From Bacteroidota bacterium (lineage in GTDB: Bacteria > Bacteroidota > Bacteroidia > CAILMK01 > JACPUW01), in assembly GCA_016192035.1 (NCBI GenBank), contig JACPUW010000044.1:1-64000 (forward strand): a stretch of 64,000 nt of DNA. Direction: 5' to 3'. Of this stretch, positions 7,949 through 64,000 are shown piece after piece. The notes beneath the pieces were generated by a model that did no database searches, was not told the origin of the DNA, and was given only the letters and a program-made list of their open reading frames with translations. The position numbers were made by a program, and so were the translations under genes. Numbering within the stretch: position 1 is the first letter of the stretch; every line of letters starts with the position of its first letter.

Positions 7949-8596
7949 ATGGAATTTGCCGTTTTCACCTTTAATCCCTTTCAGGAAAATACCTATGTGG
8001 TATGGGACGACACCAAAAACTGTGTGCTCATAGACCCGGGCAGCTACTACCCAAGTGAAATAGAGGAAATCACCCGCTTTATTGATGATAATGGACTTCA
8101 TCCCCACAGTGTGCTCAATACCCACTGTCACTTAGACCATGTGTTTGGTGTACAGCATTTTAAGTCGCTGTACCAAATCCCATTTGTATGTCACCTACAG
8201 GAACGGGCCAACCTAGACAGGCTGGAATTCCAGGCAGGCATGTTTGGTATTAGGCTTAAATACCCCTGTCCGGAGCCCGATGTTCTTCTAGGTGCTGAAA
8301 GCCAATATCAGTTTGGCAATACTGTCCTTCGCCTGCTCTTTGTGCCAGGCCATTCGCCGGGCCATCTGGCCTTCTACCACCAGCCTAGCGGCGTGCTGTT
8401 GGGTGGCGATGTGCTTTTTCGAGAAGGGATAGGACGTACCGATTTGCCTGGCTCTAGCCAACCCGCCCTGGTTCAAAGCATTCAAGAAGTACTCTATGCC
8501 CTGCCCGGCGAAACACGGGTACTCCCCGGCCATATGGGTGAAACCACCATAGGCCATGAGAAAAGGCACAACCCCTATGTAAGGGCTAAAACCTAA
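7949..8596 (+). CDS. MBL-fold metallo-hydrolase, glyoxalase II-like
   Basis: 215 aa, full length for this small class. The metal site of the metallo-beta-lactamase fold is complete: THCHLDHVFG (H-x-H-x-D-H), a later His in GHSPGHLAFY, the bridging Asp in LGGDVLFREGIGRTDLPG, and a final His in LPGHMGETTIG. This is the pattern of glyoxalase II-like thioester hydrolases with two metals. The usual C-terminal substrate domain of true glyoxalase II is absent, so the substrate is open. GACCTTTG 5 bp before the ATG resembles a -7 box. The last 11 bp overlap the convergent PorG-like gene. Confidence 0.88.
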   Translation: MEFAVFTFNPFQENTYVVWDDTKNCVLIDPGSYYPSEIEEITRFIDDNGLHPHSVLNTHCHLDHVFGVQHFKSLYQIPFVCHLQERANLDRLEFQAGMFGIRLKYPCPEPDVLLGAESQYQFGNTVLRLLFVPGHSPGHLAFYHQPSGVLLGGDVLFREGIGRTDLPGSSQPALVQSIQEVLYALPGETRVLPGHMGETTIGHEKRHNPYVRAKT

Positions 8597-9458
8597 AGCA
8601 AGTAGGCGGGAAAAAGGTGTAGGTTAGCGTGATTCCGGTAAAATAGTACCAGTCATTGGTGGTGCTGTTGCCCCTGGGCACAATCAATTCCTCGGGCGGC
8701 ACATCCCTCCCCGTAAGCTCCGAACGGCGGTCCATAAGCCTCCAGCCGTAGTCACCGGTGGTTTGATAGTACACCGCCTCTGGCACATACCAGTGGCTCA
8801 CGTCGTCAAGGTAGTCAGTAAATACCTTGCGGGCCGTAAACTCAAACGTGAAATTGATGCTGCGGCCTAGCGCGTATTTTATGCCAAGCCCCATGGGTAC
8901 GCATACCTGTGTTAGGCCATAGGGCCTTTGTGGATAGCCCTGTGATTCAAGGGGCTGGTTGTATGTGGAACCCTGGCCTTCGGTGCCCATTTGCTGTAGG
9001 TTCCACACCACGCCGTCTAGCTCGGCCTGTGGGGTAAACTTGTAAATGCCCAGCCCAGCGTAGGCAAACGGGCTAAACCTATATCGTCGCGAACGGATCT
9101 TGTAGCCTGTGAAATGAAATTCAGGGGTCACGCTCAACTCACTTACTGGAGAGAAAAAACTTAGGTTGCGGGCACGGCGGCGCTCGTCGGTAGCGTATTC
9201 GTCACTGCCCGAAATGGTGCCATAATAGCCGGCAGCCCGTATGGACCATTTGTAGTTCAGGTTGTACCTAATTACCCCACCCACTGCAGGGTGCATGGTT
9301 TCGGTCATAAAAAGCCCCTCGCTTAGGTCGCCATTGTAGTGGCTGGTACCCATAAAGGTGCCAACTTCCCATTTCTGGGCCAAGGCACTCAACGTACATA
9401 AGCACATGGCTACCAAGTACATGAATTTCATGGGGAGTTTCATTAAAAGGTGTTGCAT
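8586..9458 (-). CDS. PorG-like outer-membrane barrel protein (DUF6089), third of three
   Basis: 290 aa with an N-terminal signal peptide (MKFMYLVAMCLCTLSALAQ). Three possible ATGs lie at 9458, 9443 and 9431; I keep the longest. The mature protein has family marks: GTSHYNGDLSEG at the start, RARNLSFFSPVSEL, an FAYAGLGIYKF strand, TEGQGSTYNQP, FTDYLDDVSHWYV and a C-terminal aromatic residue (FRF) typical of barrel proteins. PorG of Porphyromonas, in the same family, is a T9SS outer-membrane component. It overlaps the preceding paralogue by 16 bp and is the last gene of the long nadK/gdhA run. Confidence 0.82.
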   Translation of the reverse strand: MQHLLMKLPMKFMYLVAMCLCTLSALAQKWEVGTFMGTSHYNGDLSEGLFMTETMHPAVGGVIRYNLNYKWSIRAAGYYGTISGSDEYATDERRRARNLSFFSPVSELSVTPEFHFTGYKIRSRRYRFSPFAYAGLGIYKFTPQAELDGVVWNLQQMGTEGQGSTYNQPLESQGYPQRPYGLTQVCVPMGLGIKYALGRSINFTFEFTARKVFTDYLDDVSHWYVPEAVYYQTTGDYGWRLMDRRSELTGRDVPPEELIVPRGNSTTNDWYYFTGITLTYTFFPPTCFRF

Positions 9459-10312
9459 AAAATTCCGGTAAACTGTTTGGTAATATTCACCCCAAAGAAC
9501 ACATAGCGGTCTTTATTGGTAGGGTCTCCCCTAAATTGAAATCGGTCAAAACCTTGTCCAATAGGGTAATTCTCCTTTTCCAGCCTTCTGTCAGACAGGG
9601 CTTGGTTTAGGGAGTTTTCCCCATAGGCTATCTCCATTTCGTTTGGATCTGGGTAGTAGCCGCTCACGTCGTCCAGAAAATCCGTTAGGGTCCAGCGGTA
9701 GCAAAACTCCAAGCTTAAATAGTAGCCCCGTCCCATTTTTAGTTCTATGCCCACCCCCGCCGGTATGGCCAAGTCTATCAGGCTGTATTTGTCGCGGTGG
9801 CGCAAATAGGTGGTTCCTTGTCCCTCAGTGGCCAGTGGTTGCAGGTCTATCCATTCATTGTCATAGCGGGCCTGTGGGTTAAACATAAAGCCCGCCAGGC
9901 CGGCCAGTACGTAGGGGTGGCCCTTGTCAGTGTAAGAGGGGCCTGTAAACAAATGGATTTCAGAGACTATTTGAAATTCATAAATATTCGACCTAAAGTT
10001 TAGGTTCCTGTTCCTGCGCCAGTAAAAGGTTGACACGGCGTCGTCGGCAGTTACCCGTCCCACATAGGCACCGGCCCTCAGTTTCACCGTCCTGTCAAAG
10101 TGGTATTTGGCCAAGATGCCCCCCGCATTCTTCCAGAAATCAAAGTCGTTCAGGCCTGAGGAAAGGTCGCCTTGGTAATTGGAAAATCCCAAATTCACCC
10201 CAAACTCCATGTAGGGGTACTGCTGTGCTTGGGCATGAAATAGGCTTAGTAGGTAGGCAATGGGTAGAAATACAAGCGCTCTCAGTGGCGTATTGTTCAT
10301 TAGGTGGGTCAC
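9443..10312 (-). CDS. PorG-like outer-membrane barrel protein (DUF6089), second of three
   Basis: 289 aa. The GTG at 10312 directly abuts the stop of the upstream paralogue; an ATG four codons in (10300) is the alternative. A signal peptide ends at ...LSLFHAQAQQ. Family marks: FSNYQGDLSSG, RNRNLNFRSNIYEF, VLAGLAGFMFNPQARY, TEGQGTTYLR, LTDFLDDVSGYYPDP and a terminal aromatic (NTF). About the same length and domain layout as its two neighbours, from which it has clearly diverged in sequence, so the tandem triplication is old. Confidence 0.83.
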   Translation of the reverse strand: MTHLMNNTPLRALVFLPIAYLLSLFHAQAQQYPYMEFGVNLGFSNYQGDLSSGLNDFDFWKNAGGILAKYHFDRTVKLRAGAYVGRVTADDAVSTFYWRRNRNLNFRSNIYEFQIVSEIHLFTGPSYTDKGHPYVLAGLAGFMFNPQARYDNEWIDLQPLATEGQGTTYLRHRDKYSLIDLAIPAGVGIELKMGRGYYLSLEFCYRWTLTDFLDDVSGYYPDPNEMEIAYGENSLNQALSDRRLEKENYPIGQGFDRFQFRGDPTNKDRYVFFGVNITKQFTGILCNTF

Positions 10313-11152
10313 TTAAAAGGCGTAACAGGGTGATGCACCCAGCTTTTTGACAATCGTAAAAAAGAGGAACCCATACCAATCGCGGTTGTTGGGGTTGCCC
10401 CTCAAACTACCCGGCACGGCAGCATCAAGTCCCACCTCAGGCCTGCGGTCTGAGAGTTGTATGGCGGCAGCCCCATTTTCGGTCAGGGCAAGTTTGCTAA
10501 AATCGGGGTAATAACCGCTTATGTCATCTAGGTAATCGGTGAGGGTGGGCCGCATGCCCAGCTCTACCCCAAAGATTATATCGTCTGATACCGTTTTCTT
10601 GAAACCTATGCCAAAGGGGAATGAAATGCCAAAGGAGGAATATGGATCCAAGTTGCCGCCCGCAATGTATTGTCCCTCAGTGCCAATTTCGCGCAACTTG
10701 AGATAAGTGCGGTCTGCCAATTGGGCTTTTGGATCAAATCGAAATCCAGCCACTCCCGCAAAAATGTATGGCGCAAACGTCAGGTTGGCCGATCCGGGCA
10801 AAAAGGGAAATATGTCATATTCCACTTCCACGGCCAGTTCCATTATCGTAGTCCTAAAATTGAGGTTTGTTCGGTTATCACCCGCTATGTCCCTGTCGCG
10901 CCCAGTAATGTTTCCGTACGAAAAACCTGCACGCAATTTCCAATTGGCGTTCATGTTAGCCCGCATGAACAGACCCACGGCCGGGCTTGATTCGGAGGGC
11001 ACCGGACGGGGTGCCAAGTCGCCTATGTAGGTGGACAGCCCAAAACGCGCACCCAGTTCTACCTGGCTTATGGCAAGGCAGGGAAGTAGTACCAAGGCGG
11101 CCAATGCTAAGCCTCTCAGTTCCGTTATGCCGGTTTTCACTTTGGTCAACAT
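10313..11152 (-). CDS. PorG-like outer-membrane barrel protein (DUF6089), first of three
   Basis: 279 aa, start ATG at 11152, signal peptide ending near PCLAISQ. Marks: GLSTYIGDLAP, RTNLNFRTTIMELAVEVEYDIF, FAGVAGFRFDPKAQ, TEGQYIAGG, LTDYLDDISGYYPDF, and a final YAF. It lies 34 bp downstream of nadK. In many Bacteroidota a single DUF6089 gene sits after nadK and before uppS and bamA; here the slot holds three copies and uppS/bamA are missing from this side. A fourth copy of the domain is fused to the protein at 62096. Confidence 0.85.
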   Translation of the reverse strand: MLTKVKTGITELRGLALAALVLLPCLAISQVELGARFGLSTYIGDLAPRPVPSESSPAVGLFMRANMNANWKLRAGFSYGNITGRDRDIAGDNRTNLNFRTTIMELAVEVEYDIFPFLPGSANLTFAPYIFAGVAGFRFDPKAQLADRTYLKLREIGTEGQYIAGGNLDPYSSFGISFPFGIGFKKTVSDDIIFGVELGMRPTLTDYLDDISGYYPDFSKLALTENGAAAIQLSDRRPEVGLDAAVPGSLRGNPNNRDWYGFLFFTIVKKLGASPCYAF

Positions 11153-59298: not shown

Positions 59299-59778
59299 TT
59301 AATTAGAGTGTGCTTCTATAAAGTGTACTAGTGCTGCGGGGAATGCCTTTTTGGTGAGGACTACCAAAAGGTAATAGCTGAGGACAAAAAATGCCAAACC
59401 CAAGAGGGCTGCCAGCTTTGGGACTACCAAGTAGAAAAGTATGGACATGACAACAGCCCTTGACGCTGCAATGGCAACGCCCCGGTTCAAATTACCAGAT
59501 AATGTTACGGTTAGCTGGTCGCCGGTCAATTCACAATACACATCGCCCGCACCAAATGCCCGCACAAAATTTTGCCCCCTATGGACCTTTGTCCTTATCA
59601 ATCTATTCCTGAATTTCGCGCCAGTATTTATCCTTTCACAGGATGAAGGGTATTGTTTTTCTATGAATTGATATGCCAATTTGCTGAATTGATCTAAATC
59701 ATTGGATACATAGGGCCTCTTGTGAAACACTATGCGGCCTTTGAATCGGGGTAAGTAGGTGGTCAGATACTGCTTCAT
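59299..59778 (-). CDS. Hypothetical membrane protein
   Basis: 159 aa, not recognised. About 100 soluble residues rich in Arg/Lys and Phe/Tyr (QYLTTYLPRFKGRIVFHKRP) and a strand pair VYCELTGDQLTVTLSGN are followed by two hydrophobic helices (AVVMSILFYLVVPKLAALL and FFVLSYYLLVVL). No Cys and no signal peptide. It is 9 bp upstream of nnr on the same strand and starts 194 bp from gldL on the other. Whether it belongs with either is unknown. Confidence 0.6.
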   Translation of the reverse strand: MKQYLTTYLPRFKGRIVFHKRPYVSNDLDQFSKLAYQFIEKQYPSSCERINTGAKFRNRLIRTKVHRGQNFVRAFGAGDVYCELTGDQLTVTLSGNLNRGVAIAASRAVVMSILFYLVVPKLAALLGLAFFVLSYYLLVVLTKKAFPAALVHFIEAHSN

Positions 59779-59971: not shown

Positions 59972-60508
59972 ATGCCAAAAAATAGAAAGGGTAGTTTCGA
60001 TTACCTCAACTTTGCTTATGGACTCGGTGCCGCTATTGTGATAGTGGGTGCCATGTTCAAGTTCTTAGGCTGGGAATATGCCAACGAAATGTTTTTGATA
60101 GGGTTAACTACCGAAGCTGTCATTTTTTTAATAAGCGGGGTTGAATTCAAGACCCCCGACAACACGCTTCATTGGGAGAGGGTTTTTCCACAATTAGACC
60201 CAAAGTACCGGGGAGAGATGGCCAAGATGGACTTGGCAGAGATACAGAACGTGTATTTTAAAAACACTGAACAACTGGCGGGAAATATCAATGCCTTTAG
60301 CGACTCTTTGGAGCGGCTGAACGAAAGTATTACTAGATTGGGGCTGGATGTACAGCGCATTGGAACAAGTATTGACAAAATAGAGCATGCCTCGGTGAGG
60401 TATGAGCAAGAATTGAATACGTTAAGTGATAAAATGAATAAGCTCAACGCTTTCTATAACTCCGTGCAATTGGTGCGCGGGGGAAATGATGGCGTTGTGC
60501 ACATGTAA
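59972..60508 (+). CDS. gldL: GldL homologue, proton-channel subunit of a GldLM motor
   Basis: 178 aa, a little shorter than canonical GldL. Two membrane helices: FAYGLGAAIVIVGAMFKFLG and EMFLIGLTTEAVIFLISG. The residues I recall as key in Flavobacterium GldL (Tyr13, Lys27, Glu49) have counterparts Tyr16, Lys30 and Glu48, so proton use is likely intact. The cytoplasmic tail keeps HWERVFPQL and a coiled coil ending LSDKMNKLNAFYNSV but is truncated in the middle. The family's H-W-P-G turn between the helices reads L-G-W-E-Y-A-N. It starts a three-gene set with gldM 10 bp on. gldK is not upstream; the neighbour runs the other way. Confidence 0.88.
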   Translation: MPKNRKGSFDYLNFAYGLGAAIVIVGAMFKFLGWEYANEMFLIGLTTEAVIFLISGVEFKTPDNTLHWERVFPQLDPKYRGEMAKMDLAEIQNVYFKNTEQLAGNINAFSDSLERLNESITRLGLDVQRIGTSIDKIEHASVRYEQELNTLSDKMNKLNAFYNSVQLVRGGNDGVVHM

Positions 60509-60518
60509 ACCGCCGTGA

Positions 60519-62096
60519 ATGAGTGTAGGAAATTCAAATAGCCAAAAACTGCGTCAAAAGGCCATTGGCCTTCTGTACCTGCTGTTTATAGCCTTGGTTT
60601 TCATCTATGTGCCTTCTGATTTTCTCGACTCAATCAATGAGACCAACCGTTCACTCGAAAAAACATCCCTGGAACTTTCTGGGCTCAAATCAGGCAAGTT
60701 TATCATGTTTGAAAAGGAGGGGTTTGATTTAAGTATCAACAACCTAACGGATAGCTTTAAGTATCGGTTTATTTCTCAAGTGAGCGACACGGCCTATAAC
60801 CGGATAGCACGCATAAAGCAATTCTTGATAAATGAAACCGGAGGGTACAATGAGTTTGGCTACCCTAAAAAGAGCAAGGAATTTGACATTACCGACCACC
60901 TAATGCTCAACTCTAACAGGGCTACCAACTTAAAAAAGTCCATCTTGGAGTTTAAAAATAACATCAGGCCCTATTTGAGTGATGGGCAGGAATCCATACT
61001 CGATTCTATCTTGGTGATCAAAGAAAATGTGGTGGCATCAAATGGCAAAGCCATAGCCTGGGAAAAATTCTATTTCAAGAAAGCGCCACTCAGTGTCACC
61101 CAAATGATGCTTTCCAAATTTCAATCTGAGGTCCGATTGATTGAATATCTGATTCTTGATAAATACGAGCGCGACTTTCTGCACGATATTTTCATTCGCT
61201 CAGGACTTGCCCAAGCCAAGAAACTCGATGGTGATGCAAGTGAAGAATCAAACCTGGTGTTAAAAAAAGCCAAACCCTACTTTATGGTTGGCGAGGAAGT
61301 GGTATTGGAACCTGAAATAGAAGGGGTGGAGCGTGATGCCATTACATCAGCCAACCTCACGGCCGAATACCGGGTTGGCGATGTGGTAGAGCAAGCCCAA
61401 ATAAGCACAGATGGCCTTATCCGCTTTGTGCCGAAAGTGAGCGGAGATTACGAGGTGATGGCAACTTTTGAAGGCAAGGAAAGCGTAAATGTCGCTATTT
61501 CAGTATTTAACCCTAAACCAATCATCAACCGGGAAGAATTGGAAGCCCTATTCCTGGATGTGCGCAACCCCCTGCGTATAGAAGCCGACAACCTAGACCC
61601 CGCAAGCCTGGAAGTAAGCAGCACCATGGGCCAAATAAGAAAGATCAATGACCTGTACTATATCAAGTTTGACAAACCAGGCGAGGTAACCATACATGTA
61701 GATGCCACCATTGATGGCAAGAAAGTGCATATCAACAGCCGAAAATTCCTGGTAAAGGAACTGCCAATACCTTATGCATCACTCAACTCAATGAGGAGCG
61801 GAGAAATTCTCGAAGCCCATATGCGGCTCCAACGCAAGCTCATGGTGAAATCTGAAGTATATGAAACCGATAACTTTTACAATGTCAAGGAATTCAGGAT
61901 TACCAGGATTTCTGGCGATGGATATGAGGTAAACCAACTCCCTGCCATGAACAAAACGGCCAATTTTGGCCCTCACGCCATAGAAATGGTGAGAAAGGCA
62001 AGCAAAGGCGACCTCTTTGTTTTTGATGAAATAGTGGTGGTGGGTGCCAATGGTAAAGAACACGAACTACAGGCCCTGGCCTTTAAGATAATTTAA
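60519..62096 (+). CDS. gldM: GldM homologue, rotor subunit with periplasmic domains
   Basis: 525 aa. One N-terminal helix with the basic start KLRQKAIGLLYLLFIALVFIYV followed by P-S-D-F-L-D-S-I-N-E-T-N, which matches the GldM helix that sits inside the GldL pentamer (Arg12 corresponds to the conserved Arg). The periplasmic part is a row of four domains; the last has LPIPYASLNSMRSGEILEAH, FYNVKEFRITRI and GDLFVFDEIVVVGANGKEHEL, the D4 pattern. In T9SS this arm contacts the GldK/N ring. Its TAA overlaps the ATG of the next gene (TAATG). gldN does not follow. Confidence 0.88.
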   Translation: MSVGNSNSQKLRQKAIGLLYLLFIALVFIYVPSDFLDSINETNRSLEKTSLELSGLKSGKFIMFEKEGFDLSINNLTDSFKYRFISQVSDTAYNRIARIKQFLINETGGYNEFGYPKKSKEFDITDHLMLNSNRATNLKKSILEFKNNIRPYLSDGQESILDSILVIKENVVASNGKAIAWEKFYFKKAPLSVTQMMLSKFQSEVRLIEYLILDKYERDFLHDIFIRSGLAQAKKLDGDASEESNLVLKKAKPYFMVGEEVVLEPEIEGVERDAITSANLTAEYRVGDVVEQAQISTDGLIRFVPKVSGDYEVMATFEGKESVNVAISVFNPKPIINREELEALFLDVRNPLRIEADNLDPASLEVSSTMGQIRKINDLYYIKFDKPGEVTIHVDATIDGKKVHINSRKFLVKELPIPYASLNSMRSGEILEAHMRLQRKLMVKSEVYETDNFYNVKEFRITRISGDGYEVNQLPAMNKTANFGPHAIEMVRKASKGDLFVFDEIVVVGANGKEHELQALAFKII

Positions 62097-64000
62097 TGAA
62101 TAGGACAACAACAATATGGATTATAGCCGCGCTGGCTTCCGTCTGGTGGTTGCCGGCCCAAGGCCAGCAACTCCTGCCCGTGGTGGTGAACAACGACCTA
62201 AACCTGGCCAAGGGCACCTACTTGGCCGACCGCAATATCCTGATAGGCCCTGAAGCCGTGCTGCGCTTGGCACCAGGCAGTAAAGTTCTCTTGGCCCCCG
62301 GTGTAATTATCCGGGTGGAAGGAGGCATGGTCATAGAGGGAACCGAAAGCGAATTTGCCGAGATTACCAGCCAGGATCCGGCCCGGCTTGGTAAGGGCAT
62401 CATGGTTACCGGCATATCGGCCAAAGAAATTGTTTTTCACAAAGTGCGCATTCACCAAATAGAAATGCCGCTGGAATTTGGGCATGACTGGCACCGCCCA
62501 CTGGTATCCATTACCGGCAGTGAATTTAAGGACAACGTATCCTACACAACGGGCATTTTCGTTCGGGTCCCTGAAAACATTGAGGTTACCGGCAATTGCC
62601 ATTTCCGTATGGTGGGCAATTCGTACATCAACAACATAGGCGGCATATACATAGAAAACATAGACCAGGCCAACTTTCAGGTGACCGTGGGCCGAAATTT
62701 CGTATATGGAAACCGGGCTTATGGCGCAGGCTTGGAGGGCATGCTTACCTCCCCGTTTTTCTTTAGGAGCGATTTTGAAGATGCCAATAAAAATTTCGTG
62801 CTCAAGGACAATGTGTTTGATGAAAACTTTATCCTAGATTCTGAGTTTGATACGGTAATTCACGAAGTTAACGTGGGCGTGGCAGGCAATGCTTCAAAGG
62901 TTTCCATTCCCTTCAACTACTTTGGTCAAGAAAGCCTGGAACAAAAAACAAAGAAGATGGACCACTTTAGCAACAATGGAAGTGCGCCTTTTCTAAACAT
63001 TGTGCCTGAGCTTTCATCCCCTCCACAAGATATGCCACCCACGGTAACCTCGGTCATGCTCAATGGTCAGCCAATTATGCCCAGCCCCGATTTCATATTT
63101 GAGCCACAACCCGAAATAGAACTGGCATTGGTGTTTGCCGATGAGGTGGAAATAGCCAATTCATCCCCGCAGGTACGGTTTACTGCCTATGATGAAGAAA
63201 CCGAAACGGAAGTAAGCGGCGTGTTGAGTACCAGTGTTACCTGGACCGATGCCAGGACAGCCGTGTTCCGGAGCAAAGACATTCTCCTTTCCAAAGTGAA
63301 GCGTGTGTTTTTCACCTTTACCGGCATAGTAAGCAAATCGCAGTTCAGCGTTCCTGCTTTCTATCTGGGTGAAAATGGCTACAAACGCTTTATTGCCAAG
63401 AATAAAGCCGCAATCCTTGAAAATAAGGCCCGTTTTGCAGCTAGGGGAGGGGGGCCAGGGGGCACCGAAGGAAATTCACCAATAGACCCAGCGTTGATTA
63501 AGCAACTAATTGAACGACAGGACTCACTGGAAAAACTCTTGGAAGACCTCAAATCAAACGAAAGCAAGAACTACAAGGACATAATGGATGAAGCCGAAAA
63601 GCAAATCACTTTTGGCAGGTATTTCAAGGGGTCTTATGAGTTTGGGGCATTTGTTGGTACGGCATCATACTTTGGCGACCTAACCGGCAACGTGAATTTT
63701 GTGGATCCAGAAGACGTGGACTGGGCCTTTGGCCTCATAGCCAAATATAATTTTACCGAAAGGGTGACCCTAAGTGCCGGTTTGATTCAAGGGAAGCTCT
63801 CTGGCAATGAAAGCGACAACTTTAGGGGATCTCCATACCAAGACAGGGGGTTTGAATTCTACTCACCACTTACCGAAATCAACCTAAACCTAGAGTTTAA
63901 CCTCAATAAACTGGGCTTTGGCAACCAAGGAAGGTTTACCCCTGCGCTTTCCCTGGGTGTGTGCGGGTTTAGGTACCACCCCAAAACCCTATATACTTTT
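62096..64000 (+). CDS. Exported beta-helix/Ig-like/coiled-coil protein fused to a PorG-like barrel, 3' partial
   Basis: 635 codons seen, open to the window end; no stop in frame. Signal peptide about residues 1-24 (ASVWWLPAQGQ). Residues about 25-290 are short repeated strands with right-handed beta-helix rhythm (VLRLAPGSKVLLAPGVIIRV, EGGMVIEGT, SYINNIGGIYIENI). Residues about 305-425 look Ig-like (SVMLNGQPIMPSPDFIFEPQP). About 445-500 is Gly-rich then a coiled coil (LIERQDSLEKLLEDLK). From 505 the protein reads as the DUF6089/PorG-like barrel (GAFVGTASYFGDLTG, KYNFTERVTLSAGLIQG, LSLGVCGFRYHPKTLYT), like the genes at 8586-11152, and is cut by the window end. It would link the motor to the outer membrane. 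Confidence 0.85.
   Translation, partial: MNRTTTIWIIAALASVWWLPAQGQQLLPVVVNNDLNLAKGTYLADRNILIGPEAVLRLAPGSKVLLAPGVIIRVEGGMVIEGTESEFAEITSQDPARLGKGIMVTGISAKEIVFHKVRIHQIEMPLEFGHDWHRPLVSITGSEFKDNVSYTTGIFVRVPENIEVTGNCHFRMVGNSYINNIGGIYIENIDQANFQVTVGRNFVYGNRAYGAGLEGMLTSPFFFRSDFEDANKNFVLKDNVFDENFILDSEFDTVIHEVNVGVAGNASKVSIPFNYFGQESLEQKTKKMDHFSNNGSAPFLNIVPELSSPPQDMPPTVTSVMLNGQPIMPSPDFIFEPQPEIELALVFADEVEIANSSPQVRFTAYDEETETEVSGVLSTSVTWTDARTAVFRSKDILLSKVKRVFFTFTGIVSKSQFSVPAFYLGENGYKRFIAKNKAAILENKARFAARGGGPGGTEGNSPIDPALIKQLIERQDSLEKLLEDLKSNESKNYKDIMDEAEKQITFGRYFKGSYEFGAFVGTASYFGDLTGNVNFVDPEDVDWAFGLIAKYNFTERVTLSAGLIQGKLSGNESDNFRGSPYQDRGFEFYSPLTEINLNLEFNLNKLGFGNQGRFTPALSLGVCGFRYHPKTLYTF

Follow-up and report, generated by a model that had tools for sequence, protein, structure and literature searches.

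A separate clade of GldLM-type motor genes encoded with a beta-helix/PorG-like barrel protein in uncultured Bacteroidota

At the end of the 64,000-nucleotide stretch of Bacteroidota DNA analysed here (the window, part of contig C44 of its genome), we identified a three-gene operon, gldL2-gldM2-orf3, whose first two products fall in a clade of GldL and GldM proteins separate from those of the type IX secretion system (T9SS), and whose third product joins a beta-helix to a PorG-like barrel. The operon was found in dozens of uncultured Bacteroidota and looks like an undescribed envelope-spanning machine. The reading that we hold to be probable, though well short of settled, is that of a separate and ancient proton-driven 5:2 motor of the GldLM type, dedicated to ORF3 and driving it directly without a GldKN ring. 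To our knowledge, GldLM has been described only as powering the T9SS and gliding, in partnership with the GldKN ring or track; the existence of a separate clade that comes with an outer-membrane partner of its own suggests recruitment of this engine for a different task in the envelope. We found no literature describing a second GldLM clade, although our coverage of the literature was incomplete and novelty is meant relative to it. The genes of the locus and its borders are as follows:

59299 to 59778, reverse strand: divergent ORF of 159 aa without a family match, the upstream border of the operon and not part of it
59972-60508, forward strand: gldL2, 178 aa, two-TM motor ring subunit with a short cytoplasmic tail
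60519-62096, forward strand: gldM2, 525 aa, one-TM periplasmic axle/shaft subunit
62096 to contig position 64420, past the window end (64000), forward strand: orf3, 774 aa
64514-66841 of contig C44, beyond the window: hybrid histidine kinase, 94 bp downstream of orf3

This gene content and order were observed directly, and the coordinates agree with those of an earlier note on this DNA, as do the gap of 10 bp between gldL2 and gldM2 and the TAATG junction at which the ATG of orf3 overlaps the gldM2 stop. The same note had placed a DUF6089/PorG-like domain at the C-terminus of the third protein, where PF19573 indeed matches residues 515-696. It did not describe the N-terminal two-thirds of this protein, with its beta-helix, nor the absent C-tail cysteine, nor how widely the operon is conserved, with tandem GldM genes in most relatives. 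Inspection of the sequence past position 64000, which had been proposed, brought up the hybrid histidine kinase (HisKA, HATPase and receiver domains, plus a weak TPR match) and no gldK or gldN, both of which are absent from the locus as far as the contig end. The kinase was left out of the operon because relatives do not conserve it.

Two readings of the locus had been offered, one being that a T9SS locus has been rearranged and the other that a second GldLM-type motor exists separately and has an outer-membrane protein of its own; also proposed was a search of the genome (2.98 Mb, 100% complete, 0.11% contamination) for another gldKLMN. That search retrieved a complete porP-gldK-gldL-gldM-gldN set on contig C23, the GldL of which is 33% identical to GldL2, and the genome's other GldM scores 288 against TIGR03517 (cut-off 180). 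Base composition is similar in the two loci, with a G+C content of 46% in the operon and 47% in the canonical gldKLMN. The intact canonical set elsewhere, together with the separate clade described below, leads us to reject the rearranged locus and supports the second reading; each outcome that was to refute it, namely gldN or gldK after orf3, a sole gldLM in the genome or a placement within the canonical clades, failed to appear. A relative of the same family (G002) was seen to carry two canonical-type gldM-gldN pairs on its contigs C31 and C399 (L008 and L007), a duplicated T9SS core that is unrelated to the window's operon.

At the level of family models, GldL2 matches GldL_N (PF22827, 86.6 bits) and passes TIGR03513 (103.6 vs. 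a cut-off of 68.3). The motor residues Y16, K30 and E48, which had been reported as kept in the window, are invariant in 56/56 family members. E48 takes the position of F. johnsoniae E49, which is essential there (PMC8986121), and the position of F. johnsoniae E59, needed there for adhesin movement and not for adhesin export, is E58 in GldL2 and glutamate in 47/56 of these proteins, the window's included. Two peculiarities pointed out in the window alone proved to be clade-wide: a shortened tail (median 165 aa vs. 263) and an altered turn, where the His of K-x-x-H-W (27/28 canonical proteins) gives way to G or D in all GldL2 (56/56), the window's protein having KFLGW in place of the canonical K[IL]xHW. 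The trees that had been called for place the window's GldL2 and GldM2 outside canonical GldLM. Among the 54 proteins of the GldL tree, 26 GldL2 and 28 canonical sequences are separated by a branch with 100/100 support, with the genome's own canonical GldL on the canonical side, and a GldL2 profile run over 395 genomes of the class gave a bimodal distribution, 12 scoring 185-235 bits and the rest no more than 112.

GldM2 matches PF12081 (58.5) and PF21602 (36.2), both above cut-off and corresponding to domains 1 and 3, while D2 has diverged and has no Pfam match, D4 scores 23.0, just under the Pfam cut-off of 24.6, and the protein lies below the TIGR03517 equivalog cut-off (110.3 vs. 180). Its model consists of a TM helix (7-30), a helical D1 up to ~237 and then three beta domains, and matches PorM/GldM structures (PDB 7cmg, E 4.6e-20). 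Arg12 is kept, as had been remarked, and the motor arginine is found in 14/14 M2-type (single-type) GldM2; from published GldLM structures we take this residue to be part of the motor core (F. johnsoniae GldM Arg9). A tree of the N-terminal halves resolved four groups, canonical (100/94), M2 (98/93), M2a (100/100) and M2b (100/99), with the window's protein in the M2 clade, apart from canonical GldM. Because the program warned of long branches meeting between M2a and M2b, we relied on this tree for one point alone, namely that the window's clade and the canonical one are separate, and claim no position for the M2a/M2b duplication from it. GldL2M2 thus shares with canonical GldLM the GldL_N and GldM domains, the essential Glu/Lys/Tyr and Arg, and a TM segment with a multi-domain periplasmic arm, whereas it differs in its separate clade, the absence of gldK/gldN from the operon, the HW His changed to G/D, the short GldL tail, an outer-membrane partner of its own and, in most relatives, a tandem GldM.

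A survey of DUF6089 genes beside gldM had likewise been suggested beforehand; profile searches and a signature scan revealed that the GldL2-GldM2-ORF3 operon recurs in relatives. Within the class, GldL2 occurs in 12/395 genomes, spanning five families, and ORF3 lies beside GldL2/GldM2 in 12/12; two further genomes have ORF3 only, near a contig end, where the contig of G002 stops 182 bp upstream of ORF3 (those bases encode an apparent GldM2 C-terminus) and that of G310 stops inside M2b. We also scanned 84,980 named genomes for a DNA signature that encodes [AS]MFKFx[GDE]W, a motif specific to GldL2, retrieving 59 contigs, 50 of which encode GldL2 and one more of which is cut at the contig edge, while the remaining eight look like chance matches. 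Such a scan finds exact matches to one motif only, and its counts describe layouts, not frequency. The named carriers of GldL2 are all metagenome-assembled genomes by their titles (50/50), and ORF3 was present in every named contig with at least 3.2 kb of downstream sequence (24/24). No gldK, gldN or porP was found near any GldL2 locus, in either the signature-scan contigs or related loci. An opposite-strand gene often lies within 20 bp after ORF3, and the operon therefore looks self-contained. An ORF3 profile search of the phylum returned mostly ordinary PorG and unrelated beta-helix proteins, and a search of viral contigs gave no match. Weak beta-helix matches in family f57 and genome G309 (L215, L216, L059) were followed up and turned out to be unrelated. 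Type-B cargo genes (SprB repeat, CHU_C) were seen after orf3 in a few relatives only and, not being general, were not used as evidence.

The observed conservation bears on whether the operon might merely be a relic, that is, a duplicated and rearranged gldLM with a chance neighbour, on its way to degradation. A GldM score below cut-off would fit this, as would the split orf3 of some relatives (L050, L114), but the gene order is common to many families, the motor residues are invariant in all 56 proteins and the window's genes are free of stops, so that the relic is largely refuted by conservation and we regard it as very improbable. The distribution also weighs on an envelope-maintenance role similar to that of Tol-Pal or Ton, in which ORF3, energised by GldL2M2, would serve to hold the outer membrane or to constrict or open it, and neither secretion nor gliding would be involved. 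The layout is the same as in ExbBD-TonB and TolQRA-Pal, with an inner-membrane motor fed by the proton-motive force, a periplasmic arm reaching an outer-membrane partner and no T9SS ring, and OmpA-type peptidoglycan-binding genes directly follow orf3 in two relatives (L046, L048). However, these neighbours are not general, a patchy presence in ~3% of the class is unlike a housekeeping system, and the operon has no recognisable TonB, TolA or Pal and belongs by sequence to the GldLM family; we consider such a role quite improbable.

The third protein, ORF3, is composed of the following regions, in this order:

signal peptide
residues ~30-300: right-handed beta-helix
residues ~315-410: Ig-like region
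residues ~428-506: predicted helical linker
residues 513 to end: PorG/DUF6089-like barrel

Its PF19573/DUF6089 match reaches 69.7 bits (cut-off 23.2), and the protein stays under the PorG equivalog cut-off of NF052316 (96.8 vs. 130). A structural model of the part inside the window (634/774 aa; 17 sequences; mean pLDDT 71.6) contains a signal helix, a well-predicted beta-helix (pLDDT ~90), the Ig-like region, a poorly predicted helical linker and barrel strands; beyond residue 634 the barrel rests on profile and alignment only. The nearest PDB folds are PL6 lyases (E 3e-4, with a low TM-score over the full fragment), and no Pfam lyase match was found in ORF3; as far as the model allows, weak global scores of this kind would be expected for a generic beta-helix. 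W132 and R134 are invariant in the beta-helix of the family and are a candidate contact site. The Ig-like stretch is present in ORF3 of the window's type and absent from that of the tandem type, which accompanies two GldM genes. In one relative (G041; L046 9003-15351), orf3 lacks the barrel, and two PorE-like genes (PD40, OmpA) come after it, the first of which overlaps orf3 by a few bases; in view of this case, the barrel is not indispensable.

Compared with PorG, the T9SS barrel (DUF6089, NF052316) to which its C-terminal domain is homologous, ORF3 differs in its N-terminal beta-helix and Ig-like fusion, in being encoded with a motor and in its C-terminal tail. PorG is disulfide-linked through C-tail cysteines to GldK, and hence to the moving track (Liu et al. 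2025, PMC12635249). Such a cysteine was observed in 4/4 of the genome's other DUF6089/PorG proteins (TCFRF, LCNTF, PCYAF, NCFNFK), whereas no Cys occurs within the last 60 aa of ORF3 in 25/25 complete barrel ends, and the known mode of attachment to the track is therefore closed to ORF3. Three of the genome's PorG proteins are tandem paralogues of 290, 289 and 279 aa, each with its C-tail Cys, encoded in the window at 8586-11152 on the reverse strand and adjoining a gene that reads as an NAD kinase; the fourth lies on contig C23 by uppS- and bamA-like genes.

It is mainly because ORF3 lacks the PorG tail cysteine that we prefer direct drive over an auxiliary T9SS motor, in which a spare or condition-specific GldL2M2 would drive the normal GldKN ring or track and ORF3 would be an extra PorG or a cargo carrier. 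Homology to GldLM and PorG speaks for an auxiliary motor, and canonical GldN is present elsewhere in 14/14 genomes examined, so that a GldKN ring is very likely present in them and GldM2 could use this shared ring; non-covalent use of the ring remains compatible with the missing cysteine. Against this stand the loss of the cysteine in every complete ORF3 end, a GldM2 below the TIGR03517 cut-off with a D4 below that of Pfam, and ring genes that are never found in the operon, and we judge the auxiliary motor to be unlikely. Direct drive, for its part, has no experiment behind it, a GldM2-ORF3 complex is only inferred, and the ORF3 without a barrel in G041 counts against this reading.

Under direct drive, a GldL2 ring would surround a GldM2 dimer in the inner membrane, and the ORF3 barrel would sit in the outer membrane with its beta-helix (plus the Ig-like region in the window's type) hanging into the periplasm, in the place that the GldK/GldN ring occupies in the T9SS. 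Proton flow through GldL2 (E48 with K30/Y16, and R12 of GldM2) would turn or swing GldM2, whose C-terminal tip may reach the outer-membrane side and there push against the periplasmic part of ORF3 directly, so that the barrel would be moved or worked in the outer membrane without a GldKN track. We infer the assembly, the 5:2 stoichiometry, proton-driven rotation, the direct GldM2-ORF3 contact and a working motor from the genes and their products, and that the output is a moving envelope or surface component is a guess. With only three genes, a system of this kind offers a much smaller setting for studying how force passes from GldM to the outer membrane.

Layouts differ between relatives. The window's type is gldL2-gldM2-orf3 with a single GldM, while most relatives have two tandem GldM genes, the commoner arrangement among named contigs being a ~170-aa coiled-coil gene, gldL2, M2a, M2b and orf3; two Bacteroidales contigs have two M2-type genes in tandem. 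M2b keeps the motor arginine in 37/38 cases, the exception being a contig-edge fragment. In M2a (L052-L057, L108-L164) it is absent from 48/48 and replaced by S, N, T, I or L, with a Lys/Arg three residues past the lost arginine in 46/48. Loss in M2a beside a co-encoded M2b that keeps its arginine makes an asymmetric axle possible. A wider reading is that of a distinct motor class, a GldLM-type 5:2 engine that works directly, without a GldKN ring or track, on a protein made of a beta-helix and a PorG barrel and that has, in most lineages, a heterodimeric M2a-M2b axle, the two chains being co-translated and M2a having lost the arginine (0/48) and gained the Lys/Arg (46/48); we put forward this joint reading only tentatively, as plausible rather than probable. 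A parallel is found in the AglRQS gliding motor of Myxococcus, which has two MotB-like subunits, AglQ and AglS, and shares with the tandem-GldM relatives the combination of a single ring protein and two distinct axle-type proteins (PMC9389320), although it belongs to a different family and the window itself has a single GldM. Relatives with tandem GldM genes provide a natural test of whether the motor charge has to sit at the same place in both axle chains of a 5:2 motor, and of whether the axle can be a heterodimer. The ~170-aa coiled-coil gene that starts most tandem-type operons (L052:12632-13159 and relatives) is weakly similar to Bacteroidota FtsL.
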